Shown here piece after piece: positions 4,403 to 61,240 of a stretch of DNA of 64,000 nt (position 1 is its first letter; every line of letters starts with the position of its first letter). The stretch is from Mixophyes australis. Lineage: Eukaryota; Chordata; Amphibia; Anura; Limnodynastidae. The translations under genes and the position numbers were made by a program. The DNA is taken from NCBI GenBank assembly GCA_036250195.1, contig JAVHZZ010000001.1:396550117-396614116 (forward strand). Reading direction: 5' to 3'. The notes beneath the pieces were generated by a model. It ran no database searches, was not told the DNA's origin, and was given only the letters and a program-made list of their open reading frames with translations.

Positions 4403-5440
4403 CTACATACTTTGATCTACCTCCTAGTGGTTTTGGCTTAAAAGGTGATGTGGACACAGAATTCCCAGATTTATTTTTCAGACAACCTTACGTTATACTG
4501 GAATCACTGATGTGTCTGGTGCTCTAAGTAAATATCTTCTGCATCAGGTAGGAAGGCTCAATGAATTCCCTATAAATAGGGTAACATTTGTAAAATAAGC
4601 AAATGAAAGAAATTAAACATATCAAATGTTACATTTTATTTAATAAAACAGTTCTTTCAAACGTAAACTGACATTTAGCTGCCTTGACCTTCATTCTACT
4701 TGACTTATAAAATGTTCTCATTGAGGTAAAGCAGATTTGTGCTTGAGTCCTTTCGTTATCTAAGCTAAAGCCTGGCTACCTTCCCAGCACAACTAAGCAA
4801 TACCTCTAACATTTTTTTGCACAAATTGCCTTTACTTTAAGCTTTTGTTCTTGATCACATTTTCAGTGGTTGTTTGCTTTTTTATTTTTAAACTCAGAAA
4901 ACTTTTGTTAGCCTAAGTTTGTCCCTTATAAAGTTGTATTCAATAAATGGTAAATACATTTTAGTGAATAAAGATACAGTATTAATGGGGTATCAACAAT
5001 ATTGCAAGCAAGGAGTAATAGCCCTCTGTTGTAAAACATTATTTTTTTGTATGAATATATGAAATAAATAAAAGTAGAATTTCAGGAAGAATAATCTTGA
5101 CCACTCAAAGGTAAATCCTGTTGTTTGGCCTGATCACCCAAAAACCACACATGTATCACACATATGCCAAAGATGTGAAGGCTATGGAACCAGTTCCTAT
5201 GCAATCTCCTTAAACAGTAGATCACATAGGGCTCATGCAGTGCCATCAGTTGGTGACCTCACATACATTCATATTACAGTCGATGATAATTTACAGCATG
5301 CGCCATAAAAACTTCCTGGATTACATTTGGATTTTGGTTAGTTAGCTGGTTGTTTTGACCACACACATGGAATTGTGTATGAACATCTTAAGTGTTAAAA
5401 GCCACACTTTCCCCTCCTGCCTTCCTACAATTTATTTTCA
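4403..5440. other. AT-rich non-coding DNA, nothing recognised
   Basis: No reading frame with protein-like composition, no clear repeat boundary and no RNA gene seen. Confidence 0.5.
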
Positions 5441-24565: not shown

Positions 24566-25414
24566 GTTTCACCAAATTTTTGTTTTTGAAGGAATATTTT
24601 CAGTTAGCTGAGATCTTTCATCCATGTGTTATTACTGTCATTCCCATAAAATTCTCCTTTATCTGGACAGATGAATTCTACTTCTCACATATTTTTTTTA
24701 AGATCTGCTTGCAAATTGAAAGTTGACATCCTAGGAAATAGTATTTATTTGCATAATAGGACAAAAAGAACTTTTGTTATCTTACCCTAATCGAGTACCT
24801 GTATCTAAATCCTGTATCCCAAATATCATTTAGTTGAATTATTACATTTTTATTGTCGAAATATAAGATAACTGTATCTGACCTTATATCTTGTGTCATA
24901 ATAACATTTTATGACTCTCACTACCCGAGCTGGATTAGGAGATCTCATCTTGTTCACAGTAAGTACATACATACAAACAAAGAAAAAAGAAGAACTAATC
25001 CACTCAAGGGATAGGACTATCCTCATTTACATATATACCCAAAAAACAAATAACAGTTGTAATATGAGGGGTTGCTCTCCCAACTAAGTAGACATAGCGT
25101 AAAGGACAATTGGTGAAACAGATCACCAAAAAAAGGAGTTGGTTTTCAAGGCACTCCAGTCTATAAACATAAAAGCAAATTTATTAGATAATTTATTAAA
25201 ATCTTATAACCAGGTTTCAAAAGTCGGCAAAATATTAATTGAAAACAAAGCAAGTGAGAAAGTGAGAAAAATAAGTGAATAAGAAATAAAATAGTTACAA
25301 ACACAAAATGTCACCGCACTAGATAGTAGGATAATCTCCTCCAAAAAATATAAATATTATAGACCCAGGATGAATTACCCAGGGGGTGCACCCTACACTA
25401 ATTGCATAATGAAC
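24566..25414. other. Possible PLE 5' or 3' flanking sequence
   Basis: No gene. At 25,160-25,200 the phrase GGCACTCCAGTCTATAAACA followed by AAGCAAATTTATTAG is built like the start of the inverted-repeat arm at 25,440 (GGGGCACTCCAATTAGAGAA...CATTTTATT), suggesting another PLE end here. Boundaries are unclear. Confidence 0.3.
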
Positions 25415-26437
25415 AAAAAGAGGAAAGCTGTGTGGATGGGGCACTCCAATTAGAGAATAAAAAGTAATACATTTTATTGGTATGCATTAAAAGGGGGGTA
25501 GAACTTGCAAGCGAAATATAAAATCAAACATATAACACACAGTGATACAAAATATAAAATGCAATCTGTATTGCAAGGACTCCGAAACGAAACTATTTGC
25601 ACTAGTATAGACAGCAGTGAGCTATAATAAGCTATGGCTGTCTAAATGGATAAGCATGCTAATATATGCCCATAGATTAGTATAGTGCAACTCCTGTATA
25701 GCGATATAATAGAACACTATAATGCCTGAATAGATATAGCGCTAATCAAATATGATAAGGCATGCTGATCTAAATATTATTAAACAGACATGCAATTAGC
25801 GACTAAAGATAATCCACTAAAATAGTAATGGTCCCACAATAGGAAGTCGCTAGTAACAACAAATGACAGGTAGCGAGTGGAGCCTATTCCTGCTGATCGC
25901 GGGAGTATGTGAAGGGTCCCTGCCTGTATAAACTGGGGAGCGATCAGGAGGATAGAAGATCAAAAGACAGGAGAGCAGTAACGGAGCCCTGAAACGCCAA
26001 CGCGCGTTTCGCTAGGCTGCTTTTTCAAGGCTTAGTGGATTATCTTTAGTCGCTAATTGCATGTCTGTTTAATAATATTTAGATCAGCATGCCTTATCAT
26101 ATTTGATTAGCGCTATATCTATTTAGGCATTATAGTGTTCTATTATATCGCTATACAGGAGTTGCACTATACTAATCTATGGGCATATATTAGCATGCTT
26201 ATCCATTTAGACAGCCATAGCTTATTATAGCTCACTGCTGTCTATACTAGTGCAAATAGTTTAGTTTCGGAGTCCTTGCAATACAGATTGCATTTTATAT
26301 TTTGTATCACTGTGTGTTATATGTTTGATTTTATATTTCGCTTGCAAGTACTACCCCCCTTTTAATGCATACCAATAAAATGTATTACTTTTTATTCTCT
26401 AATTGGAGTGCCCCATCCACACAGCTTTCCTCTTTTT
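25415..26437. repeat. 406-bp near-identical inverted repeat with 211-bp spacer
   Basis: The left arm 25,415-25,820 and right arm 26,032-26,437 have equal length and match as inverted copies with only about three differences that I can find (near 25,504, 25,590 and 25,727 in left-arm coordinates). The spacer 25,821-26,031 is GC-richer and contains CCAACGCGCGTTTCGC. On the minus strand that gives GCGAAACGCGCG, a phrase found after the hammerhead-like region of PLEs. The arms start with GGGGCACTCCAATTAGAG..., like a PLE 3' end. The likeliest reading is two PLE termini in head-to-head orientation. There is no open frame. Confidence 0.85.
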
Positions 26438-27760
26438 CTTCAAGAAATAAAATAGACCAACCCTAAATCCCACTGCACCTCACGGGGTAGCACAAGGCAA
26501 GCAAAAACTGCATGAAGGGCACAGTGTGAATCAGAGGAAACAGTACAAAATTGCATATGAGACTTTTTCCTTTTATTGCGGCCCACACAATCTTAGACTT
26601 TGATTGTTTGGCCCAATTGGGGTTTTGAGATTGACATGTATGTGTTAAACTCTTTACGATTCAATAACCCATGAATAAAAATTATGTATGCTTATATTTA
26701 AATTATTTGCAGCTTACTTTTTCTGCCAATTTTAAATAGACTTAATAGAGCTGTTTTGAGTTGGTTTTAAAGTTAATTAATAAGATAAAAGGAATTAATC
26801 AAATAAATCAAGTATATTCTTTAGATTTAGGGTTTCAAAGTTCTTGAAATGTCCATAAATCCAAGAGTTTTGCTAATTTTCAAACACCCATTATTTGTAG
26901 ATGATAGACCCTTCCTAATATTTGTGGAGAACCTTTATTTTTTAAAATGTTTCACTCAATCCTATTAACAGCAAAATACAGTGCTTTAACTACAAATTAC
27001 CCTGCTATGCCATCTTCTGCAATTTATACTTTGTCAACTGTATGCCCACAGGTTTTTACTTCATAACTAATTTCCAGATCTTAAAATTTAGTAAGTTAAT
27101 GTAAAATGGTATTTTTATATCAGGGTCATTAGAGTGCTTCCTGTTTTAAATAGGCTATTACTGTAATGCACACCTAACTTATTATTTGATGGGGCAGTGA
27201 TTGTATGAGCTTTCTTAAATGATGTAAAAATGTAAAACTTCCAATATTAAACTTCAATTATTGTAAATTAAGTTGACTTTAAATGACAGGCCAGTTGGCA
27301 GACATATGAAGTTCCAATACCAAACCTTTGTCCCAGGCGCTGCTGCATGCAGCTGTATTATCAGAGATTTGCCAGTAACATATAATTGGTGAATCAATGC
27401 CACTCACCACTTTAAAATGGTGATGGAGAGAATATGTAAGTGGGAGGACCAATCACAAGCCGCAATCTCTTCAGAGCCTCCAGAGCTCTGGCTCAGGGAA
27501 AGGGGCACCTTAGTAAAATTCTTTATTAGGTGGCAGTGCAGCATTAATGTCACCCCTTCTTGTCGGAATTATTCAGATAATGGGAATAAAAAAGTACACC
27601 ACCTTTAAAATATGTGTTTTTACATATCAGGACATAAATAACAATTGTCTAATCATCATCAGGATCCAAAATCTAATCTCATGGAACAAATATCTTACAT
27701 CATATTTGTAGACTTCTGGCCCATTTCTTCAAACAGTGTTCTAATTCATTGTTGCTTCAG
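26438..27760. other. Non-coding DNA, nothing recognised
   Basis: AT-rich. The short frame 27,417-27,608 has no recognisable domain and sits in no repeat that I can name. Confidence 0.45.
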
Positions 27761-29920: not shown

Positions 29921-30529
29921 ATGCTGCAGAGGATGGAGGTGCATCAAAAGGCCATTCAAGCCTACACAGCCACCTACGACATAGGAAAAGGAGTGGGGAT
30001 GCGCCTGAGTCAAGCGCACTGGAGAATGATTTCCGTGTTGTGCAAGGTTCTGCAGCTATTTGAACTTGCCACAAGAGAAGTCAGTTCCGACACTGCCAGT
30101 TTGAGTCAGGTGATTCCCCTGATCAGGCTTTTGCAGAAGCAGCTGGAGAAAGTGAGGGAGGAGCTGGTAAACCATTGCGATTCCACCAAGCATGTAGCTC
30201 TTGTGGATGAAGCCCTTCCTACGTTTTGCCAGGATCCGAGGGTGGTCAGTCTTTTAAAGTCAGAGGAATACATTCTGCCGACCGTTCTCGATCCTCGGTT
30301 TAAAGCGTATGTTGTGTCTCTGTTTCCGGCGGACACAAGTCTACAGCGGTGCAAAGACCTGCTGGTCAGGAGATTGTCCTCTGAAGAGGACCGTGACATG
30401 CCACCAGCTCCACCTTCATTTTCATCACTGTTTGTGCAGTTCCAAAAAAGAGGAACTGCCATTTCTATTGCTACCTTCTTTCTTTCTACGCAGTCCAGAT
30501 ACTTGTTTGGTGAAATTCTGACGAGTTGA
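29921..30529 (+). pseudogene. hAT transposase, C-terminal catalytic-region fragment
   Basis: This 202-residue open frame contains the signature QAHWRMISVLCKVLQLFELA, then TREVSSDTASLSQVIPLIR and YILPTVLDPRFKAYV. These correspond to the W-x-x-(I/L)...L.PF..AT..lS and LDPRFK blocks of hAT transposases, downstream of the second catalytic Asp. The first catalytic Asp region and the C-terminal dimerisation domain are absent, so it cannot be active. The 15 last residues (LSTQSRYLFGEILTS, stop at 30,527) are encoded by DNA that is clearly related to the 78-bp satellite units that follow. Confidence 0.8.
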
Positions 30530-31850
30530 GGGTGCATTAATTATATTGTGGCCCCGGTATCAAATTGGGTACCGGGGCCACCCCACTACGCAGTCCAGAA
30601 TTTTTTTTTGGGGAATTCAGACCCGTGGAGGGTTTTTTATTAATTATATTGTGGTGACCACTCCTCTACGCGGTCCAGATACATTTTTTGGTGCGATTCA
30701 GACCAGTTGATGGTTTTCTTATTATATTGTGGTGACCACTCCTCTACGCAGTCCAGGTTTATTATTTGGTGCGATTCATACAAGTTCAGGGTTCTTAAAT
30801 TATATTGTGGTGACCACTCCTCTACGTGGTCCAGATACATTTTTTGGTGCGATTCAGACCAGTTGATGGTTTTCTTATTATATTGTGGTGACCACTCCTC
30901 TACGCAGTCCAGGTACATTATTTGGTGCGATTCATACAAGTTCAGGGTTTTTAAATTATATTCTGGTGACCACTCCTCTACGCAGTCCAGGTACATTTTT
31001 TGGTGCGATTCAGACCAGTTGATGGTTTTCCTATTATATTGTGGTGACCACTCCTCTACTCAGTCCAGGTACATTATTTGGTGCGATTCATACAAGTTGA
31101 TGTTTTTTTTATTATATTGTGGTGACCACTCCTCTACGCAGTCCAGGTACATTATTTGGTGCGATTCATACAAGTTCAGGGTTTTTAAATTATATTGTGG
31201 TGACCACTCCTCTACGCAGTGCAGGTACATTATTTGGTGCGATTCATACAAGTTCAGGGTTTTTAAATTATATTGTGGTGACCACTCCTCTACACAGTCC
31301 AGGTACATTTTTTGGTGTGATTCAGACCAGTTGATGGTTTTCTTATTATATTGTGGTGACCACTCCTCTACGCAGTCCAGGTACATTATTTGGTGCGATT
31401 CATACAAGTTCAGGGTTTTTAAATTATATTGTGGTGACCACTCCTCTACGCAGACCAGGTAAATTTTTTGGTGCGATTCATACAAGTTCAGGGTTTTTAA
31501 ATTATATTGTGGTGACCACTCCTCTACGCAGTCCAGGTACATTTTTTGGTGCGATTCAGACCAGTTGATGGTTTTCTTATTATATTGTGGTGACCACTCT
31601 ACGCAGTCCAGGTACATTATTTGGTGCGATTCATACAAGTTGATGGTTTTCTTATTATATTGTGGTGACCACTCCTCTACGCAGTCCAGGTACATTATTT
31701 GGTGCGATTCATACAATTTCAGGGTTTTTAAATTATATTTTGGTGACCACTCCTCTACGCAGTCCAGGTACATTTTTTGGTGCGATTAACACCAGTTGAT
31801 GGTTTTCTTATTATATTGTGGGGACCACTCCACTACGCAGTCCAGAAAGA
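30487..31850. repeat. 78-bp satellite array with two-unit higher-order pattern
   Basis: About 18 copies of CTACGCAGTCCAG..TACATT begin at 30,487, 30,587 and then every 78 bases from 30,665 to 31,523, continuing to 31,832 with a small deletion near 31,590. Two variants alternate: A (TTTTTTGGTGCGATTCAGAC) and B (TATTTGGTGCGATTCATACA), with some hybrid units. The period is 26 codons, so long spurious open frames cross the array on both strands. The first copy lies inside the transposase frame. Confidence 0.95.
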
Positions 31851-33606: not shown

Positions 33607-34265
33607 TTAGGGGCACATTTATCATTAATCGGTAAAAGTGAGAAATAGTTATCAATCCTTATCGCAAGGATAAGGATTGAACTATTTCTCAAATTAATTA
33701 AAAAGGAACACAGAAACAGCAGTTCCAAAAAACTGCTGTTTCTGTGATAGAAAAAATCACACATACCCCCCTCTTCGGATGCGCTGTCTCGGGATCTCCT
33801 CTTCGTTCCTCTTCTTCCTTCAATTGCGCATGTGCACTGCACATGCGCACAAAGCCCCCACTCTGTCTCTGCAACTATCGTTGCAGAGAGAGCGCGCTGA
33901 GTGACAGGGAGGGATCATGTGATCCCTCCACACATGCGCTGTCCAGCTCTGCTCTTCGGAGCAGAGCTGACAGCAGTGGATTTCTTCAATTCGGATGATG
34001 TACGCCAGCTTCAGCTGACGTACATTATCAAGACAAGTTCCCGAAAAAAAAAAAATTTCGGGACTTGTTAGATTGCGGCCAGTAGCAGTCACCATTCTGT
34101 TGAATGGTGACTGCTCGCAAAAATGATCAGGAGTGCAAAGCAGCAGATATCCATGATATCTGCTGCGATGCACCTTTAATAAATTTGCGGAGGGCACATC
34201 GGGACTTTAATTCCACGGTAAGTGCACAATAGTGCACTACCGTGATTTGTTAAATATGCCCCTTA
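33607..34265. mobile_element. PIF/Harbinger-like MITE made of serial hairpins, 653 bp
   Basis: The element 33,610-34,262 starts GGGGCACATTTATCATTAAT and ends with the inverse of GGGGCATATTTAACAAAT. The 3-bp duplication TTA flanks it (33,607-33,609 and 34,263-34,265), as for PIF/Harbinger elements. Between the ends lie eleven successive, unrelated inverted repeats: 33,640-33,690; 33,709-33,746; 33,825-33,849; 33,866-33,889; 33,909-33,928; 33,944-33,969; 33,994-34,029; 34,033-34,068; 34,084-34,115; 34,133-34,172; 34,214-34,244. No protein frame is present. Confidence 0.85.
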
Positions 34266-40563: not shown

Positions 40564-40678
40564 TGTTAGGCTGCTGGTGGTCAGATAACGAACCTGCAGA
40601 ACAGACTGGTGGAGGTCTTCACCTATAGCAACCTCCTTTTCCGTAGAGCTAGACACGCTCACAGGTACTCAGATGCCC
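40564..40678 (-). mobile_element. Older solo LTR, part 1 (its 3' end)
   Basis: This block and 48,501-49,012 together form one LTR of about 627 bases lying in the minus direction. It ends TGTTAGGCTGC on the plus strand here and CTCGTAACA at the other side, i.e. TG...CA on the minus strand. The 5-bp duplication ACAAT flanks the pair at 40,559-40,563 and 49,013-49,017. It was split by the chromovirus, which duplicated TGCCC (40,674-40,678 and 48,496-48,500). Confidence 0.85.
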
Positions 40679-40806
40679 TGTCACTCACCAGACTGTGAAT
40701 GCTTCTTCCCGTGTGTTTAGGAACCGTGGCCGTCCACCATCCTGAGGGTCTGCGCATGCGCAGCCCTTTCAAACCTTCAGTACCTGTTCCTTTTAGTTAA
40801 TTGGCT

Positions 40807-40864
40807 GATCAGGCAACACTCCCTATTTAAAGCACCTGAGTTCCATACCTCGTTGCCTGATCTT
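40807..40864 (+). promoter_or_regulatory. LTR promoter: TATA box and presumed start site
   Basis: TATTTAAA at 40,824-40,831 is followed about 31 bases later by GCCTGATCTT (40,855-40,864), the expected start of the transcript. A perfect 11-bp inverted repeat, GATCAGGCAAC (40,807-40,817) and GTTGCCTGATC (40,852-40,862), brackets the box. The same arrangement is in the 3' LTR. The start site is inferred from spacing and from complementarity with the primer site. Confidence 0.6.
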
Positions 40865-40988
40865 GGAGTCTCATTCCCCATGAGCCTCTGAAGGTGTTCC
40901 TGTGTTTCCTCGTGTATTCAGCTCAGCTGATTCCTGTGGTTTCCAGACCACTTCAACTCTCCTGTGGTTTCCAGACCACTTCAACTCT

Positions 40989-41450
40989 CCTGTGTTTCAT
41001 CGTGACTGTATTAGCCGATTCCTATCCGCTGCCTCTGTGCACTACAGTTATCAACTCACTTCAACTCTCCTGTGTTTCATCGTGACTGTATTAGCTGATT
41101 CCTATCCGCTGCCTCCGTGCACTACAGTTATCAACTCACTTCAACTCTCCTGTGTTTCATCATGACTGTATTAGCTGATTCCTATCCGCTGCCTCCGTGC
41201 ACTACAGTTATCTACTCACTTCAACTCTCCTGTGTTTCATCGAGACTGCACCAGCTGATTCCTATCCGCTGCCTCCATGCTCAACAGTTCCAGCTCATCT
41301 CAACTCTCCCGTGTTTCATCGTGACTGCACCAGCTGATTCCTATCCGCTGCCTCCGTGCTCAACAGTTCCAGCTCATCTCAACTCTCCCGTGTTTCATCG
41401 TGACTGCACCTGCTGATTCCTATCCGCTACCTCCGTGTACCTGCAGTGTC
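40989..41450 (+). repeat. LTR tandem array, six units of 79-80 bp
   Basis: Units starting CCTGTGTTTCATCGTGACTG begin at 40,989, 41,069, 41,149, 41,229, 41,309 and 41,388. The matching array in the 3' LTR has four units (47,101, 47,181, 47,261, 47,341). Confidence 0.95.
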
Positions 41451-42061
41451 CTGCTTGCCGCTACCCTTCAGTTCTACTCGTGTCTGCAGCCAGCTGATCC
41501 GCTCTCCGTGCTTCTACAGTGTTCCTGCCTGTGTCAACTCGTCAGTCTGCATCGGATCAACGCCTCGCTGCTTTCATCTGGTCTAGACCATCTCTATTCT
41601 TCAGTGTTCTCCAGGTGTCCAGTTCTATATACTACTGCTTCCTGAGTATATGTTTCTATCGCTGCTGGTCTACCTACCTGTGCACTGCACCTACTTGATT
41701 ACCGCTTCCACCCTCCTGGGACTTTGCATCCTGCCGGCCTCCAGCCGTTCAGGTATCTCTGCACTCCTGTCTGACAGCCTGCTCCTGAACCACGGTATGC
41801 ATACTTCTCATTGACTGTGCTGGTGTATTGCATATCTTGCTGGACTGAGTTGTTCTCCTCTGGAGTTTACTATCCGCTGAGACTATTGCCATCATTTGAC
41901 TGTGTTACCTTTTGCCTGGATAGTTCCTGTGACTTTGTATTATTGTGCAGTGCTGTTCAGTCATTACTATATTGTGCATATCATCGTGGGATCAAGTTCA
42001 GTGTGCCCGTGTATACCCTGTATTGCATTTCTCTCCCCGTGCTCCCCCTCACATATATATT

Positions 42062-42322
42062 CAGTGGTACAGCTTGCTAGAGGCAGACCACTGTTCCCTG
42101 TTTCCTGAGTCACCTGGTTCCAGTATCCTTTCACATAGCAGTGTTACAACTTGCTAACGCAGACCACTGACTTCCCGGATACCTCCACCTGGATTCCATT
42201 CCTTCACCTAGACAGCGGTACAACTTGCTCAACGCAGACCGCTGACTCTCATCACCTCCTCGTTGCTTCTGGACATTCCTCCTCACTATAGCAGTGGTAC
42301 AACCTGCTACCGCAGACCACTG
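42062..42322 (+). repeat. Four serial hairpins in the 5' LTR leader
   Basis: CAGTGGT...ACCACTG stem-loops of 31-32 bases at 42,062-42,093, 42,139-42,169, 42,213-42,244 and 42,292-42,322, spaced 74-79 bases. Loops share ACAACTTGCTAACGCAG-like sequence. The third stem reads CAGCGGT with ACCGCTG, so both sides changed together. The second stem has one mismatch here (CAGTGTT) but is intact in the 3' LTR. Confidence 0.85.
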
Positions 42323-42541
42323 ACTACCCTCACGTTTCCTTTGTCCATTCAGTTCCTCGTGCACTACTACCTATATATTACAAGTGCTGCTAGTCATAGA
42401 CTTTCCACGAGCATTCTCTACCATCTGCTGTCTCCTGTTCCGTGATCACCCCGCTACCAGAGTACCATATTACCATCTATACTGCTCTGGTAAGTCCATC
42501 ACCTGGTGATCCCTGGGTAAAGACTCCTAGTGCCCGTGACA

Positions 42542-42554
42542 GTAAGATCAGGCC
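42542..42554 (+). promoter_or_regulatory. Primer-binding site, probably self-priming
   Basis: Directly after the LTR comes GTAAGATCAGGCC. Its part AAGATCAGGC (42,544-42,553) is the exact inverse complement of GCCTGATCTT at the presumed start of the transcript. Tf1/sushi-group chromoviruses prime minus-strand synthesis with the 5' end of their own RNA in this way. I see no match to a common tRNA 3' end. Confidence 0.65.
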
Positions 42555-43487
42555 ATGACAGACCCAGATTCGGAACCTACAGCTAAAGAGATGCTGCAGC
42601 ATCTGGTTACCCGTGTGGAGCAACAGGATGCTCGCCAACAGCTGTTACTACAATGTTACCAGGCGTTAGCCTCCCAAGGAACATCTGGACAGAATGTTAC
42701 AGCTAATGTTGAAGCTCCTGTGCTTTCCTCCGTTTCCCCAGTGCCATCCCAGGTGTCTACGGCTTCCATGCTTCACCTGCCTACTCCCTCAAAGTATGAT
42801 GGAGACCCCAAAACTTGTAGGGGTTTTCTCAACCAATGCTCAGTTCATTTTGAGCTCCAACCTGAAAATTTTTCTACCCATCGTTCCAGAGTGGCCTATC
42901 TTATTTCATTGTTTTCTGGACAAGCTCTGGCTTGGGCTTCCCCTCTGTGGGAGAGGAACGATCCAGTATTACAAGATAGTGCCAAATTTATTTCTATGTT
43001 CCGAAGTGTATTCGATGAACCAGGTCGTGTAATCTCCGCTGCTTCCAGCATTCTCCGTTTACGTCAGGGATCTCGTACAGTAGGCCAGTACGTTATTCAA
43101 TTTAGGATATTAGCCTCTGAACTTCAGTGGAACACTGAAGCATTAATTGCCGCCTTCTGGCAGGGGCTCTCCGATAAAATTAAAGATGCACTGACTACCC
43201 AAGAGCTACCTACGTCATTAGAAGATTTGATTTCCCTCTGCCATCGTGTAGACATGAGGTTTCGTGAAAGGGAATCTGAAAAAACAACTTCAGTTAAAGC
43301 ACCTCTTCGCTCAACCCCTCAACTTCGTCCAGCTTCATCTCCTGTGATCCCCATGGAGATAGGACGTTCCAAACTAACTTCTGAGGAGAGGAACCGAAGA
43401 GTAAAGAATAGACTTTGTATCTATTGTGCTGATTCCACACATATGCTCAATTCTTGCCCTAAGAAATCAGGAAATGCCAGGCCATAA
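42555..43487 (+). CDS. gag: Chromovirus gag (capsid and zinc knuckle)
   Basis: A 310-residue frame, intact from ATG (context GGCCATGA) to TAA at 43,485. It has a glutamine-rich helical N-terminus, then a central retrotransposon capsid region including MLHLPTPSKYDGDPKTCRGF and AYLISLFSGQALAWASPLWE, typical of Ty3/gypsy gag. A C-terminal zinc knuckle CIYCADSTHMLNSC (Cys-x2-Cys-x4-His-x4-Cys) at about residues 288-301 would bind the genomic RNA. Only 13 bases separate the LTR from the start codon. The pol frame overlaps its end in the -1 frame. Gag would assemble the particle in the cytoplasm. Vertebrate Sushi-class gags of this kind gave rise to domesticated genes such as PEG10; this copy looks like a transposon gene, not a domesticated one. 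Confidence 0.92.
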   Translation: MTDPDSEPTAKEMLQHLVTRVEQQDARQQLLLQCYQALASQGTSGQNVTANVEAPVLSSVSPVPSQVSTASMLHLPTPSKYDGDPKTCRGFLNQCSVHFELQPENFSTHRSRVAYLISLFSGQALAWASPLWERNDPVLQDSAKFISMFRSVFDEPGRVISAASSILRLRQGSRTVGQYVIQFRILASELQWNTEALIAAFWQGLSDKIKDALTTQELPTSLEDLISLCHRVDMRFRERESEKTTSVKAPLRSTPQLRPASSPVIPMEIGRSKLTSEERNRRVKNRLCIYCADSTHMLNSCPKKSGNARP

Positions 43488-46400
43488 CTAGTTCTGGAGA
43501 GGTGAAGTTAGGGTCCCTGGAGTCCTCTCCATCTTCTACGAAATTAAAAGTCTGCGCTTTTGATGTTACGATTTCCTTTGCTACCAAATCCTTTGAGTCC
43601 CAAGCACTGATTGATTCTGGAGCAGCAGGAAATTTCATTTCTAAATCCCTAGTGAATCAATGGTCCCTACCAGTGCTTACTTTGAAAACACCGATTACTG
43701 TGACTGCTATAGATGGATCACGTCTCATCAATGGTCTCATCACCCAGAGTACGTCTCCAGTAACGCTTCAGATTGGTGTGCTACACCATGAAGAGATTTC
43801 GTTTTTAATTCTTCCTGTTACTACAAGTCCGATTGTTTTAGGCCTTCCATGGCTTCAATGTCATTCTCCCCAGATTGACTGGCGCACTCCTCAAGTTACG
43901 TCTTGGGGAGCTGAATGTCATCATCGTTGTCTTTCTCAAGTCATTCCTCTTAAAATACAGCAATCTTCCATCTCCTCTTCCTCACCGGGACTTCCTCCTC
44001 AGTATGCTTCATTTGCCGATGTTTTTGATAAAGCTCAGTCTGAACGTCTTCCTCCTCATCGTTCATGGGATTGTCGGATCGATCTTCTACCTGGCAAGAC
44101 TCCTCCTAGGGGTCGGGTGTATCCACTTTCGTTACCTGAACTCAAGCTACATCTGAATACATCCAAGAGAATCTCCAGCGAGGTTTTATTCGACCTTCCA
44201 CCTCTCCCGCTGGAGCTGGGTTCTTCTTCGTAAAAAAGAAGGATGGATCACTACGCCCCTGCATAGATTTTCGAGGACTTAACGCCATTACTATTAAAAA
44301 TCGGTATCCCATTCCTCTGATTACTGAGTTATTTGATCGCATCAAGGGAGCTCGGATCTTTACCAAGTTGAATCTTCGTGGGGCCTATAATTTAATTAGA
44401 ATCCGGTCCGGTGACGAATGGAAGACAGCTTTCAACACCAGAGATGGGCATTATGAATATTTAGTAATGCCTTTCGGGTTATGCAATGCCCCCGCTGTTT
44501 TCCAGGGCTTCATTAATGAGATCTTTCGGGACTTGTTATATGTATGTGTCGTTGTCTACCTGGACGACATATTGATCTTTTCACAGGACCTGCCTTCTCA
44601 TCACCAACATGTGGCAGAGGTCCTTTCCAGACTCCGGAAAAATTCATTATTCTGCAAACTAGAAAAATGTTCATTCGAGTTGCCCCAGATTCCATTTTTG
44701 GGGTATATTGTCTCCGGAGTTGGTCTACAAATGGATCCAGAAAAGGTGAATGCTGTGTTACATTGGCCTCAGCCAACTACTCTTCGTGCCATTCAGCGTT
44801 TTTTAGGGTTTGCCAATTACTATAGACGCTTCATTCAAGACTTCTCGTCCATTGCATCTCCTATTGTGGCCCTGACTCGTAAAGGGGCCAATACTAAGCA
44901 ATGGTCATCTGAGGCTCTCCAAGCCTTTCAATTCCTTAAAGAGTCCTTCTCCTCTGCTCCCATTCTTCGACAGCCTGATGTGACACTTCCCTTCTTCCTA
45001 GAAGTAGATGCCTCTAATGTTGGCTTAGGAGCCATTCTCTCCCAACGATCGGAGCAACAAAAATTCCATCCTTGTGCCTTTTACTCTCGGGGTCTCCTGC
45101 CTGCGGAGAGGAATTACACTATCGGGGACAAGGAGTTGCTGGCAATCAAAGTAGCATTAGAGGAGTGGAGATACTTGTTGGAGGGAGCTCGTCACCCTGT
45201 GACGATTTTCACGGATCATAAGAACTTGTCATATCTACAGTCTGCTCAATGTTTGAATCCTCGTCAAGCAAGATGGTCTCTTTTCTTTTCTCGTTTCGAA
45301 TTAATCATAACCTTTAAACCAGCTGCCAAGAACAAGAAAGCTGACACTCTATCCCGAGCTTTTGTGACGTCCTCTGACGTTGAAGAGGTTCCCAACCACT
45401 CTATACTAGACCCCAAATGTATTTCCCTGGCTGCTTCTTCCACTAAAGTGCTACCATTTGGGAAGACCCTCGTGCCTCCTACTCTTAGGAGGAAAATCCT
45501 TTCGTGGTTCCACTCTTCTCGTTTTTCTGGACATGCTGGTGAACGCAAGACCTTTGAGATTCTTTCTCGAAGTTACTGGTGGACCTCGATGAGGAGAGAC
45601 GTCAAAGAGTTTGTATCTGCTTGTGAATTGTGTTCTCAGTTTAAGACCTCCCGCAGAAGGGGTTTGCTTCAACCACTACCCATTCCATCCAAGCCCTGGA
45701 CCCATATTAGTATGGACTTTGTTACTGATCTTCCGCCTAGTAAAAATTGTAATACTATTTGGGTAGTGGTAGACAGATTTTCAAAGATGGCTCATTTTGT
45801 CCCTTTGTCTGGTTTGCCTTCCTCTTCTACTTTGGCTGAGCATTTTGTCAAGGAAATCTTTCGTATTCATGGATGTCCGTCTGAGATTGTGTCAGATAGA
45901 GGAGTACAATTCGTTTCCAGATGCTGGCGGGCCCTATGTAAGTCCTTGGGCATACGATTAGCACGCTCATCTTCCTACCATCCTCAATCAAACGGACAAA
46001 CTGAAAGGGTCAATCAAGATCTCGAGACCTTTATAAGGATGTTCTCATCAGCCAATCAAGACAACTGGGTAGAATTGCTTCCTTGGGCTGAATTCGCCCA
46101 TAACAACATGTACCATGAGTCATCGTCCAAAACTCCATTCTTTGTGGTTTACGGTCACCATCCGTCTTTTCCGGAATTTCCTGCCCTCCCTCACACCCAA
46201 GTTCCTGCTGTAGAGACTGTTTGTCAGACCTTCAAAAATATTTGGTCTCAGGTCAAAACCTGGTTAAAGAAGACATCTGCCAAATATAAGTCTTTTGCAG
46301 ATAAGAAGAGGCGGGCTATTCCACCACTGAAAATTGGAGATCGTGTCTGGTTATCTACCAAAAATATTCGTTTGAAGGTCCCATCTATGAAATTCGCTCC

Positions 46401-46857
46401 CCGTTTTATTGGTCCATATAGGATCATTCAAGTGATAAATCCAGTTTGTTTCAAACTTCTACTTCCTAAGAATCTTCGTATTTCCAATGCCTTCCATGTA
46501 TCCTTGCTCAAACCTCTCATCATCAACCGTTTCTCGGCCCCTCATTCAGCACCTCAGCCAGTTCAAGTTCATCAGGAGGAAGATTTAGAGATTACTCATA
46601 TATTGGACGCAAAAATTTCGCGAGGAGTTCTTCGTTTCCTCGTTCATTGGAAGGGCTTTGGTCCTGAGGAGCGTTCATGGATCAAAGCTGAAGATCTCAA
46701 CGCTCCAGCTCTTCTTAAGAAGTTTTATTCCAAAAATCCGGACAAGCCCGGTTCCAGGTGTTCTGTGCCCACCTTTAAAAGGGGGGGTACTGTCACTCAC
46801 CAGACTGTGAGTGCTTCTTCCCGTGTGTTTAGGAACCGTGGCCATCCACCATCCTGA
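43463..46857 (+). pseudogene. pol: Chromovirus pol (protease, RT, RNase H, integrase, chromodomain) with one frameshift
   Basis: The frame is open from 43,463 and overlaps gag by 25 bases in the -1 phase. Protease: ALIDSGAAGNFIS with catalytic Asp near 43,613. The frame then breaks at about 44,141-44,150, where one base appears lost, and continues in the next frame. Reverse transcriptase: YLDDILIF at about 44,557 with both catalytic Asp. RNase H: EVDASNVGLGAIL and IFTDHKNL. Integrase: His/Cys finger ending ACELCSQF, catalytic blocks SMDFVTDLP, SDRGVQF and NGQTERVNQ, then the C-terminal barrel. Chromodomain: VLRFLVHWKGFGPEERSWI (about 46,590-46,730), which in chromoviruses directs insertion to modified chromatin. 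The stop (46,855) lies 65 bases inside the 3' LTR. Apart from the frameshift, key residues look intact, so the copy is young. Confidence 0.93.
46777..46787 (+). promoter_or_regulatory. Polypurine tract
   Basis: AAAAGGGGGGG followed by TAC and then the 3' LTR start (46,791). This is the usual site and composition of the plus-strand primer of LTR retrotransposons. Confidence 0.85.
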
Positions 46858-48495
46858 GGGTCTGCGCATGTGCAGCCCTTTCAAACCTTCAATACCTGTT
46901 CCTTTTAGTTAATTGGCTGATCAGGCAACACTCCCTATTTAAAGCACCTGAGTTCCATACCTCGTTGCCTGATCTTGGAGTCTCATTCCCCATGAGCCTC
47001 TGAAGGTGTTCCTGTGTTTCCTCGTGTATTCAGCTCAGCTGATTCCTGTGGTTTCCAGACCACTTCAACTCTCCTGTGGTTTCCAGACCACTTCAACTCT
47101 CCTGTGTTTCATCGTGACTGTATTAGCTGATTCCTATTCGCTGCCTCCGTGCACTACAGTTATCAACTCACTTCAACTCTCCTGTGTTTCATCGTGACTG
47201 TATTAGCTGATTCCTATCCGCTGCCTCTGTGCACTACAGTTATCAACTCACTTCAACTCTCCTGTGTTTCATCGTGACTGTATTAGCTGATTCCTATCCG
47301 CTGCCTCCGTGCACTACAGTTATCTACTCACTTCAACTCTCCTGTGTTTCATCGAGACTGCACCTGCTGATTCCTATCCGCTACCTCCGTGTACCTGCAG
47401 TGTCCTGCTTGACGCTACCCTTCAGTTCTACTCGTGTCTGCAGCCAGCTGATCCGCTCTCCGTGCTTCTACAGTGTTCCTGCCTGTGTCAACTCGTCAGT
47501 CTGCATCGGATCAACGCCTCGCTGCTTTCATCTCGTCTAGACCATCTCTATTCTTCAGTGTTCTCCAGGTGTCCAGTTCTATATACTACTGTTTCCTGAG
47601 TATTTGTTTCTATCGCTGCTGGTCTACCTACCTGTGCGCTGCACCTACTTGATTACCGCTTCCACCCTCCTGGGACTTTGCATCCTGCCGGCCTCCAGCC
47701 GTTCAGGTATCTCTGCACTCCTGTCTGACAGCCTGCTCCTGAATCACGGTATGCATACTTCTCATTGACTGTGCTGGTGTATTGCATATCTTGCTGGACT
47801 GAGTTGTTCTCCTCTGGAGTTTACTATCCGCTGAGACTATTGCCATCATTTGACTGTGTTACCTTTTGCCCGGATAGTTCCTGTGACTTTGTATTATTGT
47901 GCAGTGCTGTTCAGTCATTACTATATTGTGCATATCATCGTGGGATCAAGTTCAGTGTGCCCGTGTATACCCTGTATTGCATTTCTCTCCCCATGCTCCC
48001 CCTCACATATATATTCAGTGGTACAACTTGCTAGAGGCAGACCACTGTTCCCTGTTTCCTGAGTCACCTGGTTCCAGTATCCTTTCACATAGCAGTGGTA
48101 CAACTTGCTAACGCAGACCACTGACTTCCCGGATACCTCCACCTGGATTCCATTCCTTCACCTAGACAGCGGTACAACTTGCTCAACGCAGACCGCTGAC
48201 TCTCATCATCTCCTCGTTGCTTCTGGACATTCCTCCTTACTATAGCAGTGGTACAACCTGCTACCGCAGACCACTGACTACCCTCACGTTTCCTTTGTCC
48301 ATTCAGTTCCTCGTGCACTACTACCTATATATTACCAGTGCTGCTAGTCATAGACTTTCCACGAGCATTCTCTACCATCTGCTGTCTCCTGTTCCGTGAT
48401 CACCCCGCTACCAGAGTACCATATTACCATCTATACTGCTCTGGTAAGTCCATCACCTGGTGATCCCTGGGTAAAGACTCCTAGTGCCCGTGACA
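46791..48495 (+). mobile_element. 3' LTR of the chromovirus, 1705 bp
   Basis: It starts TGTCACTCACCAGACTG and ends GTGCCCGTGACA. Four units of the 80-bp array lie at 47,101-47,400 and hairpins at 48,016-48,047, 48,093-48,123, 48,167-48,198 and 48,246-48,276. The 5-bp target duplication TGCCC follows (48,496-48,500). Outside the array only scattered single-base differences separate it from the 5' LTR. Confidence 0.95.
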
Positions 48496-59043: not shown

Positions 59044-60309
59044 TTATAAAAAAGGTGTCACTTCACATCCTTCATTAAGTCCCCAGGGTACAAAGGTGTT
59101 AAGCGTGTAAATCCAAAAGGTTTCCCTTTGAGATAATTTTAGCAATAAATCTCCTCCTCTAGCATTTATTTGCACATGTTCAATTGCTTTAAAACGGAAA
59201 GATTCAGGGTTAGCATTATGGCAGGTAGAAAAATGTCTCGGTACACTATGGTTATCAATCTTGTGCTGAATATTCCGTAAATGTTCTAAAATACGTATTT
59301 TAACTGCTCTTTTGGTTTTACCCACATATTTTTTCCCACAACCACATTCCAATAAATAAACCACATATGTGGTATTGCAATTCATAAAAGATTGAATAAC
59401 TCTCTCTTTTCTGTTTGACGTATCGATAAATGATTTATGGTCACCATGTACATATTTGCAGGTTTTACAATGCCCACAAGCAAAAAATCCTTTTGTGGGT
59501 TGTAACCAAGTATTTTTATTTTTACTCGATATTTCCTTCAGATGTGATGGGGCTAAAATACTTTTTAAAGTTTTTGGTTTTTTAAAAATAATGCGGGGTT
59601 TCAATGGTAGCACACTTGATAAACCAGAGTCTAATTTTAATACTGCCCAATGTTTTTCTAATGTGTTTATAATCTGTTTATTGGCCACATTGAAAGTAGT
59701 GACAAAGGCACAATCAAAAGTATTAGATTTAACTTGTTTCTTGTCTTTATACGTCAATAATTGTGTCCTGTCATATCGTCTAACCTTATCCAAACTCTCT
59801 GTTAGGAGATTTTCAGGATAACCCCGTTCTAAATTTTTTTTTATAAGAATAGAGGCCTGTTTTTCAAAAGTATCTGAATCTTGACAATCCCGTTTAATTC
59901 TAGTCAGCTGAGAGATGGGTATATTGTCCTTCCATCGTCTCATATGACAACTTTTATAGTCTATATAATTATTACTATCAACTTTTTTTAAAAAAGTGTA
60001 AGTATCAATATGATGCTTTTCTTCAAATAAATTAGTGTCCAAAACCAGATCAAGAAATTCAATCCTATCTTTATCTATAACGGATGTGAATTTCAAACCA
60101 AACGTATTCACATTAATTTCCTGAACAAAAATATGAAATTCCGATTCAGTGCCTCTCCAGATGATTATCATATCATCTATAAAACGTTTAAATAAAACAA
60201 TCTTATCCATATAAGCTGTATTTGTATAAATCACTTCACTCTCCCAGTATCCCATATAGATGTTAGCGTAACTTGGTGCGAAGGAACTGCCCATCGCAGT
60301 CCCTCGCAC
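59044..60309 (-). CDS. Penelope-like element protein, C-terminal 421 residues (RT fingers-to-thumb end plus GIY-YIG endonuclease)
   Basis: This is the longest intact PLE frame. It starts inside the reverse transcriptase (GTAMGSSFAPSYANIYMG, residues 3-20). It has the catalytic block FKRFIDDMIIIW (about 40-51) with both Asp, a connection region and a Cys-rich motif CGHCKTCK (from about 278). The GIY-YIG endonuclease is at about 305-400: TTYVVYLLECGCGKKYVGKT, then KIRILEHLRNI and the His/Cys positions typical of PLE nucleases. The first half of the reverse transcriptase is missing, and the upstream end falls exactly in a TA microsatellite (60,310-60,347), so this is a 5'-truncated copy without its own start codon. 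No stop or frameshift interrupts it, suggesting a recent insertion. It could not transpose alone. Confidence 0.88.
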   Translation of the reverse strand: MRGTAMGSSFAPSYANIYMGYWESEVIYTNTAYMDKIVLFKRFIDDMIIIWRGTESEFHIFVQEINVNTFGLKFTSVIDKDRIEFLDLVLDTNLFEEKHHIDTYTFLKKVDSNNYIDYKSCHMRRWKDNIPISQLTRIKRDCQDSDTFEKQASILIKKNLERGYPENLLTESLDKVRRYDRTQLLTYKDKKQVKSNTFDCAFVTTFNVANKQIINTLEKHWAVLKLDSGLSSVLPLKPRIIFKKPKTLKSILAPSHLKEISSKNKNTWLQPTKGFFACGHCKTCKYVHGDHKSFIDTSNRKERVIQSFMNCNTTYVVYLLECGCGKKYVGKTKRAVKIRILEHLRNIQHKIDNHSVPRHFSTCHNANPESFRFKAIEHVQINARGGDLLLKLSQRETFWIYTLNTFVPWGLNEGCEVTPFL

Positions 60310-60351
<42 letters not shown>

Positions 60352-60362
60352 GAGAGAGAGAG
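60310..60362. repeat. (TA)n-(GA)n microsatellite at the PLE junction
   Basis: TA repeats 60,312-60,347 and GA repeats 60,350-60,362 separate the two PLE remnants. Confidence 0.95.
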
Positions 60363-61240
60363 ACTACGGAGAGGAGTATTTCAATACCCAACTGTCCATT
60401 AATACATTTGTTAAGCTGGGTGCAAATAATGTGCCCATTACAGTTCCGCTTGTTTGTGGATAGTATAAATCTAAGAAATTTTAAAAATTGTACTCCAATA
60501 TAAATAATCTTAGTTTACAAGTGAAAGCTTTGTTTGATATTCTGACATCCATTCCATCTTTAAAACTTGTAGCATTGAAGTTATATCTTTTAAATATGAA
60601 GGTAAAGTTTTCACTATTGTTTAAAGAATACATCTACATAGACTGATGCATGAGACATTAATGAGTTGATACTTGCTATCATTGGGCATTCTGGAGGATT
60701 GGATAATAATGTATAGACCTTCGTTTGGGAGTAAAAGATATGTATTATAGGCTGAGTCTGAAATATATAGGAATATTCATCTTGATTAATAACTTCTTTC
60801 TTTAATGCAATGTTTAAGAGTTTGGATACAGTTATATTAAACTGAACAGTTGGATCTTTCTCAGGTGATCTATAGGAATCTATATCCTCTAATAGTCTAC
60901 CTTATCAGTTGGTTTTAGTATTAACTTTTCATTATTCATAAGGTTTTCATAAGGTATATATATTTTTACCCAATCAAAATGTTGTATTATTTCCCACCAG
61001 TGAAACCTCCTTTACAAAATGTCTTTTAAAGATCAATTTGGGATCATAGTTATTGAGGTCTACATAAACTTGAAATGTATTTTGTTTGTATGTGGGGGGA
61101 AATGATAAACCTTTATTGAGTAACAGCTCAGCTACAGAGAATTTATGGTTAGAAATATGCAAAACCGTATGTTTCTTGCTATGCTTATTATCTATTGTAG
61201 CATTTTAATGATAGGATATCCAAATAAACTCCTGGTAGAA
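60363..61240 (-). pseudogene. Second Penelope-like element, N-terminal part
   Basis: Reading leftwards: frame 61,162-60,974 has SNHKFSVAELLLNKGLSFPP and TFQVYVDLNNYDPKL, the conserved N-terminal block of PLE proteins. Broken frames follow, and near 60,480-60,370 a reverse-transcriptase block, SGTVMGTLFAPSLTNVLMDS. It ends where the TA/GA microsatellite starts. The last block overlaps in homology with the first block of the neighbouring PLE (GTAMGSSFAPS), so these are two copies and not one split copy. Stops and frameshifts are frequent. Confidence 0.65.

Follow-up and report, generated by a model that had tools for sequence, protein, structure and literature searches.

An array of unrelated palindromes inside a MITE family of Mixophyes australis may be maintained by selection for amplification

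Introduction

MITEs are often thought to need little beyond their ends. The nearest described relatives of the element reported here are the Tourist-like MITEs of the PIF/Harbinger superfamily (PHIS), whose definition, as set out in PMC4482050, includes a 3-bp TWA target duplication; the same source describes a NuwaII target type, C|TNA|G. Conserved inner MITE regions thought to aid transposition are already known, since the CMITEs of Acropora corals have an inner region that is conserved between families and was proposed to act in this way (PMC2872659, in whose main text 'secondary structure', 'palindrom' and 'stem' are absent). Two further systems involve hairpins directly. Template switching is reported in PMC8794818 to create perfect stems together with compensatory changes, and the M1 and M2 repeats of pithoviruses are MITE-like, palindromic and hairpin-dense, with cruciform- and hairpin-cleaving enzymes discussed in PMC10664404 as helpers of their spread.

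Here we describe an element in a 64,000-nucleotide stretch of the Mixophyes australis assembly GCA_036250195.1 (the window; contig JAVHZZ010000001.1), and its relatives in the 3.13-Gb assembly. The element resembles the Tourist-like MITEs in being short and present in high copy number, in having no transposase matched and ends that start with G, and in its 3-bp target duplication with a preferred A/T in the middle. Unlike them, it follows TWA only loosely, within a palindromic target that is close to the NuwaII type, and conserved palindromes in an array make up its interior. The coral CMITEs share a conserved inner region but are ~100 bp, use TTAA targets (piggyBac type) and are conserved in sequence. 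Template-switch hairpins are reported for RNA genes, whereas here some ten stems lie in one mobile element with no RNA-strand signature; the pithovirus repeats are units of two palindromes repeated in viral genomes, in contrast to about ten different conserved hairpins in a single element. Among the titles and abstract openings listed by full-text searches of open-access papers, a scope that leaves aside subscription papers and Repbase notes, none concerned a MITE in which an array of different hairpins is conserved or shows compensatory changes, which is weak evidence for an apparent novelty.

Results

Anatomy of the element

The features of the window copy are collected in Table 1.

Table 1. 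Coordinates of the element and its parts in the window.
Feature	Position	Strand	Remarks
Element	33610..34262	+	653 bp, subfamily A member, 1.8% from subfamily A consensus
5' target site duplication	33607..33609		TTA
3' target site duplication	34263..34265		TTA
5' terminal inverted repeat	33610..33624	+	GGGGCACATTTATCA
3' terminal inverted repeat	34248..34262	-	GGGGCATATTTAACA on minus strand
Hairpin 1	33639..33691		23 bp here, 24 bp in consensus; 2-nt bulge
Hairpin 2	33709..33746		16 bp; alignment-free covariation
Hairpin 3	33825..33849		11 bp; 15-16 bp in subfamilies B and C
Hairpin 4	33863..33892		12 bp
Hairpin 5	33908..33929		9 bp
Hairpin 6	33938..33974		16 bp
Hairpin 7	33994..34029		15 bp here, 16 bp in consensus
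Hairpin 8	34032..34069		14 bp here, 16 bp in consensus
Hairpin 9	34084..34115		14 bp; 19 bp with outer pairs in consensus
Hairpin 10	34133..34173		17 bp
Hairpin 11	34214..34244		13 bp; sole stem not conserved between subfamilies

In the minimum-energy fold the window copy forms eleven stem-loops of at least 9 bp between 33639 and 34244 (stems 9–23 bp, loops 3–9 nt), which bears out the original prediction of a row of separate hairpins. Perfect hairpins (arm at least 9, loop 3–10) number eight, whereas 300 dinucleotide shuffles averaged 0.03 and had 2 at most, and element-free 659-base stretches of the window, taken in 200-base steps, hold at most two each. Folding against shuffled sequences, the check that the prediction had proposed, gave −310 kcal/mol versus a shuffle mean of −172 for RNA (z −21.2) and a z of −20.6 for DNA (20 dinucleotide shuffles each). 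The hairpins also differ in sequence, as had been claimed: the mutual likeness of the eleven arms is not above that of shuffled arms. They do not fill almost the whole 653 bases, a description that was too strong; in the subfamily A consensus 338 of 653 bases are paired and stems plus loops make up ~400, and the stretch 33747–33824 is without a hairpin. MITEs tend to be homogeneous in length and often form a single palindrome; this element has no overall palindrome beyond its ends. Two stop-to-stop frames of 110 aa or more overlap it, and neither gave a Pfam match. Internal tandem duplication was considered as the source of the chain and rejected; the best gapped self-match (33779–33805 with 33934–33958) was equalled in 3 of 200 shuffles under strict scoring, and under loose scoring the best self-match was equalled in 168 of 200.

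Several other features of the window are recorded for completeness. Inverted arms of 411 bp, 99% identical and ~210 bp apart, form a near-perfect long fold-back (25410–25820 and 26032–26442), and a tandem array with a period of ~78 bp occupies 30485–31846, with stop-free frames of 139–272 aa inside. A Ty3-type retrotransposon with gag, reverse transcriptase, integrase and chromodomain (40678–48495) has ~1.4-kb direct repeats on both sides, 97% identical. The window holds a further reverse transcriptase besides this element, and an open frame of 439 aa on the minus strand (59044–60363), with no Pfam match at E 0.001, which may be a Penelope-type element.

Ends, target sites and superfamily

In its 653 bp, high copy number, terminal inverted repeats, target duplications and the lack of a matched transposase, the element has the features of a MITE. 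Its ends (Table 1) have the form described for PHIS, mostly shorter than 60 bp with A or G as first base. Perfect 3-bp duplications were found at 63 of the 99 copies with both flanks (TTA 16, TAA 11, ATA 9, TAT 7, others 20). The middle base is A or T in 60 of these, strict TWA accounts for only 27, and the target context is palindromic, near AC-TWA-GT. The TTA duplication of the original prediction is present in the window copy; its label 'Harbinger-like', and with it assignment as a non-autonomous PIF/Harbinger-type MITE, is plausible but not proven, with target sites that fit PHIS but not strict TWA.

PHIS elements are mobilized by a DDE_Tnp_4 transposase with matching ends. In the genome, PF13359 (DDE_Tnp_4) gave 222 matches from the best 150 of 5,831 candidates. 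Matching ends were absent near four fetched DDE_Tnp_4 loci (L141–L144), within the stretches taken, and no pairs of 5' and 3' ends 1–8 kb apart were seen by eye among the matches listed. The four loci have transposase open frames of 437, 299, 418 and 429 aa, respectively; L141 and L144 have incidental matches in common and may be one family.

Copy number and subfamilies

The exact 5' end occurs at 1,764 + 1,730 = 3,494 places genome-wide, compared with 0 for a reversed-pattern control, and the best 40 of 3,801 candidates match the window copy at 96–100% identity along almost all of its length. Patterns for hairpins 9 and 2 occur at 4,409 and 2,347 places, respectively. A sample was drawn from one contig, comprising 80 of the 100 5'-end places listed, with hairpins not used as a criterion. 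The first 48 bases run on into family sequence in 79 of the 80, and both ends are present in 72, with lengths from 375 to 688 bp. Among these 72, the fold z lies below −5 in 71 (mean −17.0, weakest −4.8; 12 shuffles each), and stems of at least 9 bp average 8.2 per copy (range 2–13) versus 2.4 in shuffles.

Nine subfamilies were distinguished by 5' prefix (A, B, C, C2 and D–H), with 9 of the 80 copies unassigned. Each of the nine consensuses has 8–11 predicted hairpins, the common ones in the same order. The subfamily E consensus is without hairpin 4 and that of F without hairpin 9 (the F member L105 has a variant of it), so that neither hairpin is essential singly. Divergent members (L105, L108, L109, L127 and L140) carry hairpins at matching places with altered sequences. 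The prospect that other copies might lack the hairpins, which had been named as fatal to a functional reading, is therefore not borne out, the row being present in nearly all sampled copies and in nine subfamilies.

Two further observations come from the survey. L025 and L026 represent the same pair of family copies twice, ~65 kb apart on contig C7, likely by segmental duplication. A candidate second hairpin-chain family at L040:90–770 (fold z −15.8) was rejected as a composite, of which only ~287–562 is a common repeat; in 39 of the best 40 genome places the match to this query is confined to a nested stretch of ~275 bp. That nested repeat contains a long palindrome and is common in the genome. 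The outer sequence starts GGGGCCTATTTA and has an AT-rich hairpin and a hairpin-9-like hairpin (L040:247–278).

Stems are conserved in lineages that kept transposing

A tree was built from 119 copies (29 A, 21 B and 72 sampled, minus L062, L127 and L140, pruned as long branches), with ancestors assigned by parsimony. The segmental-duplicate copies L026 and L032 were left out, and so were 8 of 29 copies of subfamily B in which a script did not find both ends. Also left out, from both the tree and the fold survey, were 8 of the 80 sampled copies in which no 3' end was found (L089, L109, L115, L118, L126, L128, L132 and L138). Internal branches were taken as the lineages that kept transposing. 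The 5' end served as search key and is thus unusable as a comparison; the 3' end was not used for sampling.

At non-CpG sites of internal branches, changes number 198/36,976 in stems (0.0054), 398/25,147 in spacers (0.0158) and 65/4,612 in loops (0.0141), so that stems change at 0.34 and loops at 0.89 of the spacer rate. The terminal branches give 0.0189 for stems and 0.0289 for spacers, a ratio of 0.65 (internal versus terminal, Fisher p = 8e-10). Since this ratio is not 1, either part of the change on terminal branches belongs to master lineages missed by the sampling, or dead copies undergo some correction. On gap-free columns the stem/spacer ratio is 0.34 internally and 0.60 terminally, and with long branches also out 0.27 and 0.68; the internal loop/spacer ratio is there 0.67 (26 changes) and 0.54 (17 changes), respectively, which makes the contrast between stems and loops weaker. 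The 3' end repeat is less conserved than the stems (16/1,755 = 0.0091). Hairpin by hairpin, internal rates are 0.0005–0.0074 for hairpins 1–10 and 0.0178 for hairpin 11.

Pairing itself is conserved. Relative to the neutral rate, Watson–Crick pairs change at 0.23 on internal and 0.57 on terminal branches. Double changes from one Watson–Crick pair to another number eight on internal branches, as against 1.27 in within-hairpin permutations (0/200 reach eight) and 0–3 when partners are slid by 1–3. Terminal branches have six where 1.56 are expected (0/200 permutations); the double-change and transition counts omit L108 and L129, with which the terminal number is 17 instead of 6. The terminal excess may come from master-lineage change that the sample missed or from true correction in old copies. 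Changes from mismatch to Watson–Crick pair occur 41 times in 756 exposures internally (1.67 times the neutral pair rate) and 43 times in 818 terminally (0.81 times).

Changes can also be followed in individual hairpins. Hairpin 1 has covarying changes in subfamilies C, D and E, and one pair of hairpin 8 is C-G or T-A depending on the subfamily. A pair in hairpin 3 also differs among subfamilies, with G:G in B, G-C in A and C-G in C; the direction of change is not established. For hairpin 2 we used an alignment-free pattern (outer and inner parts fixed, three pairs free). Among 50 distinct places listed of the 2,347, the three free positions are all paired in 44 and not in 6 by hand tally, the paired states being AAA/TTT (35), GAA/TTC (5) and GGA/TCC (4); for the first free pair Fisher p = 1e-8, a value to be read with the copies being related and not independent events. 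A hand tally for hairpin 9, whose copies are likewise related, found the three free positions all paired in 26 of 31 places listed (of 4,409) and not in 5, with 2 of the paired places in new states. Hairpin 9 arms of divergent members read AGCAGTCACCAT, AGCAGTCCCCAT or GAGCACTCCCCAT, each with an exact or near complement.

Dead copies after insertion

The 29 young subfamily A copies differ from their consensus by 1.1–2.2%. With CpG sites set aside, their rates are 0.0128 in stems, 0.0113 in spacers and 0.038 in loops, and one double change at pairs is seen versus 1.5 expected; removal of shared variants gives 0.0071, 0.0096 and 0.0130, and one double versus 1.1. On the tree the terminal branches of the youngest copies have stems at 0.0073 and spacers at 0.0089 (ratio 0.82, p = 0.31), with loops at 0.018. 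The A/T run of hairpin 8 accounts for part of the higher loop values. Once inserted, the youngest dead copies thus show no clear structural constraint.

In older sets, which mix sub-lineages, stems change at about half the spacer rate (B, 0.031 versus 0.051; C, 0.0225 versus 0.049). Double changes at pairs number 5 versus 5.95 expected in set B (2 paired), 3 versus 0.64 in 11 sampled A-group copies (2 paired) and 19 versus 2.1 in set C, where 15 of the 19 come from the misaligned L138, which also enters the set C deletion rates. Deleted sites per site are 0.077 in stems, 0.116 in loops and 0.028 in spacers for subfamily C, 0.046, 0.058 and 0.016 for B, and about nil in all three for young A. 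In B and C, stems and loops are thus deleted some 3–4 times as often as spacers, as expected for unstable palindromes. Retention of the hairpins in active lineages therefore needs a reason; keeping unstable palindromes would presumably cost the element something.

The original prediction had asked for compensatory changes in stems, and had set stem decay at the pace of loops, with no compensation, against a functional reading. Compensatory changes are found between subfamilies and on internal branches but not in the youngest copies. The youngest dead copies do decay roughly in that manner, judged by stems versus spacers, whereas between subfamilies the stems are conserved and compensatory changes are present.

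The constraint carries no signature of an RNA strand

Stem changes that leave G:U (A>G, C>T) and the opposite ones (T>C, G>A) number 24 versus 24 on internal branches and 109 versus 111 on terminal branches; changes of a Watson–Crick pair that would leave G:U versus those that break the pair (W>U versus W>M) number 22 versus 105 and 145 versus 448, respectively. G:U pairs make up 2 of 169 in the subfamily A consensus and number 2–9 across the nine consensuses, with 0–28 mismatches each. That the G:U-preserving direction is not favoured argues against constraint on the RNA of one strand, and suggests that duplex DNA is constrained or that both strands are subject to the demand. Rfam at gathering scores gave no match in the window, nor in L040, L105 or L109, and the marks of a structured RNA gene (G:U tolerance, a known family) were not found.

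Discussion

Our preferred reading, in which we place evenly balanced confidence, is that an array of DNA palindromes is kept by selection for amplification in a PIF/Harbinger-type MITE. Its main rival is mutational upkeep, in which the hairpins have no function and are simply carried along: template switching or the correction of quasi-palindromes, acting whenever DNA is replicated or only in transposition-linked repair, makes them and rewrites one arm to match its partner. We consider this rather unlikely. In its favour, template switching is a reported route to perfect stems (PMC8794818), conversion of mismatches to Watson–Crick pairs is frequent on internal branches and present on terminal ones, the excess of Watson–Crick double changes extends to terminal branches, and the three states of the hairpin 3 pair, G:G among them, fit such a process. 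A host-wide mutational process should hit dead copies too, and the young-copy data therefore count against it: the stem/spacer ratio of the youngest copies is not different from 1, they have a single double change versus 1.1–1.5 expected, and set B likewise shows no excess. Upkeep restricted to transposition escapes this test. Transposition-linked template switching is the main form of the rival. As to origin, template switching could have built the hairpin chain. The suggestion of successive hairpin capture by slippage thus keeps some force, in that slippage or template switching may explain how the stems arose and perhaps how they are kept up, but no such event was caught.

An RNA-level constraint, by which transcripts must fold to yield small RNAs or to hide splice or polyadenylation signals, would account for the very strong RNA fold and for the covariation of stems, and a need for transcripts of both strands to fold would likewise exclude G:U. 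We nevertheless find it improbable given the balanced G:U directions, the few G:U pairs in the consensuses and the lack of an Rfam match at gathering scores. Stems of 9–24 bp are, moreover, short for Drosha and Dicer. The proposal of selection for a folded transcript yielding several small RNAs survives in its structural half, through stem conservation and compensatory changes, while its transcript half is unsupported. Were each palindrome a site for a dimeric protein, be it the transposon's Myb-like protein or a host factor, the palindromes would be conserved and the constraint strand-symmetric, as found. However, the eleven arms have no common motif beyond chance, and in hairpins 1, 2 and 9 the stem sequence shifts while pairing stays, which would not be favoured by a protein that reads sequence, and we consider this quite improbable. 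It is highly improbable that the chain grew by short fold-back elements inserting into one another. Such elements do nest, as the ~275-bp repeat within other sequence at L040 illustrates, but direct repeats abutting the hairpins are at chance level (3 bp in 5 of 11 hairpins, chance fraction 0.475; none of at least 4), the arms are unrelated, and the common hairpins keep the same order across nine consensuses.

Returning to selection for amplification, some ten short DNA palindromes stand in a set order in the inner part of the MITE. We propose that they would act in cis, as hairpins or cruciforms of the DNA, and make it more likely that a copy is mobilized and multiplied. They might, for example, extrude under supercoiling, or fold where replication or gap repair leaves DNA single-stranded, and the candidate steps to be helped are excision, pairing of the ends, or donor-duplicating repair. 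The stronger statement, that this cut-and-paste family depends on a cis array of about ten unrelated palindromes selected for their shape, as extruded hairpins or cruciforms, and not their sequence, we put forward more tentatively.

If true, the array would be a signal for amplification that lies in DNA structure and, like the stems of RNAs, evolves through compensatory changes. The inner paired bases are held more tightly than the 3' end repeat and covary without an RNA signature, which makes the role of internal DNA secondary structure in transposon success testable. Because a single genome contains thousands of its copies, in many subfamilies, the family is a natural data set on whether palindromes are kept up by selection or by template switching.
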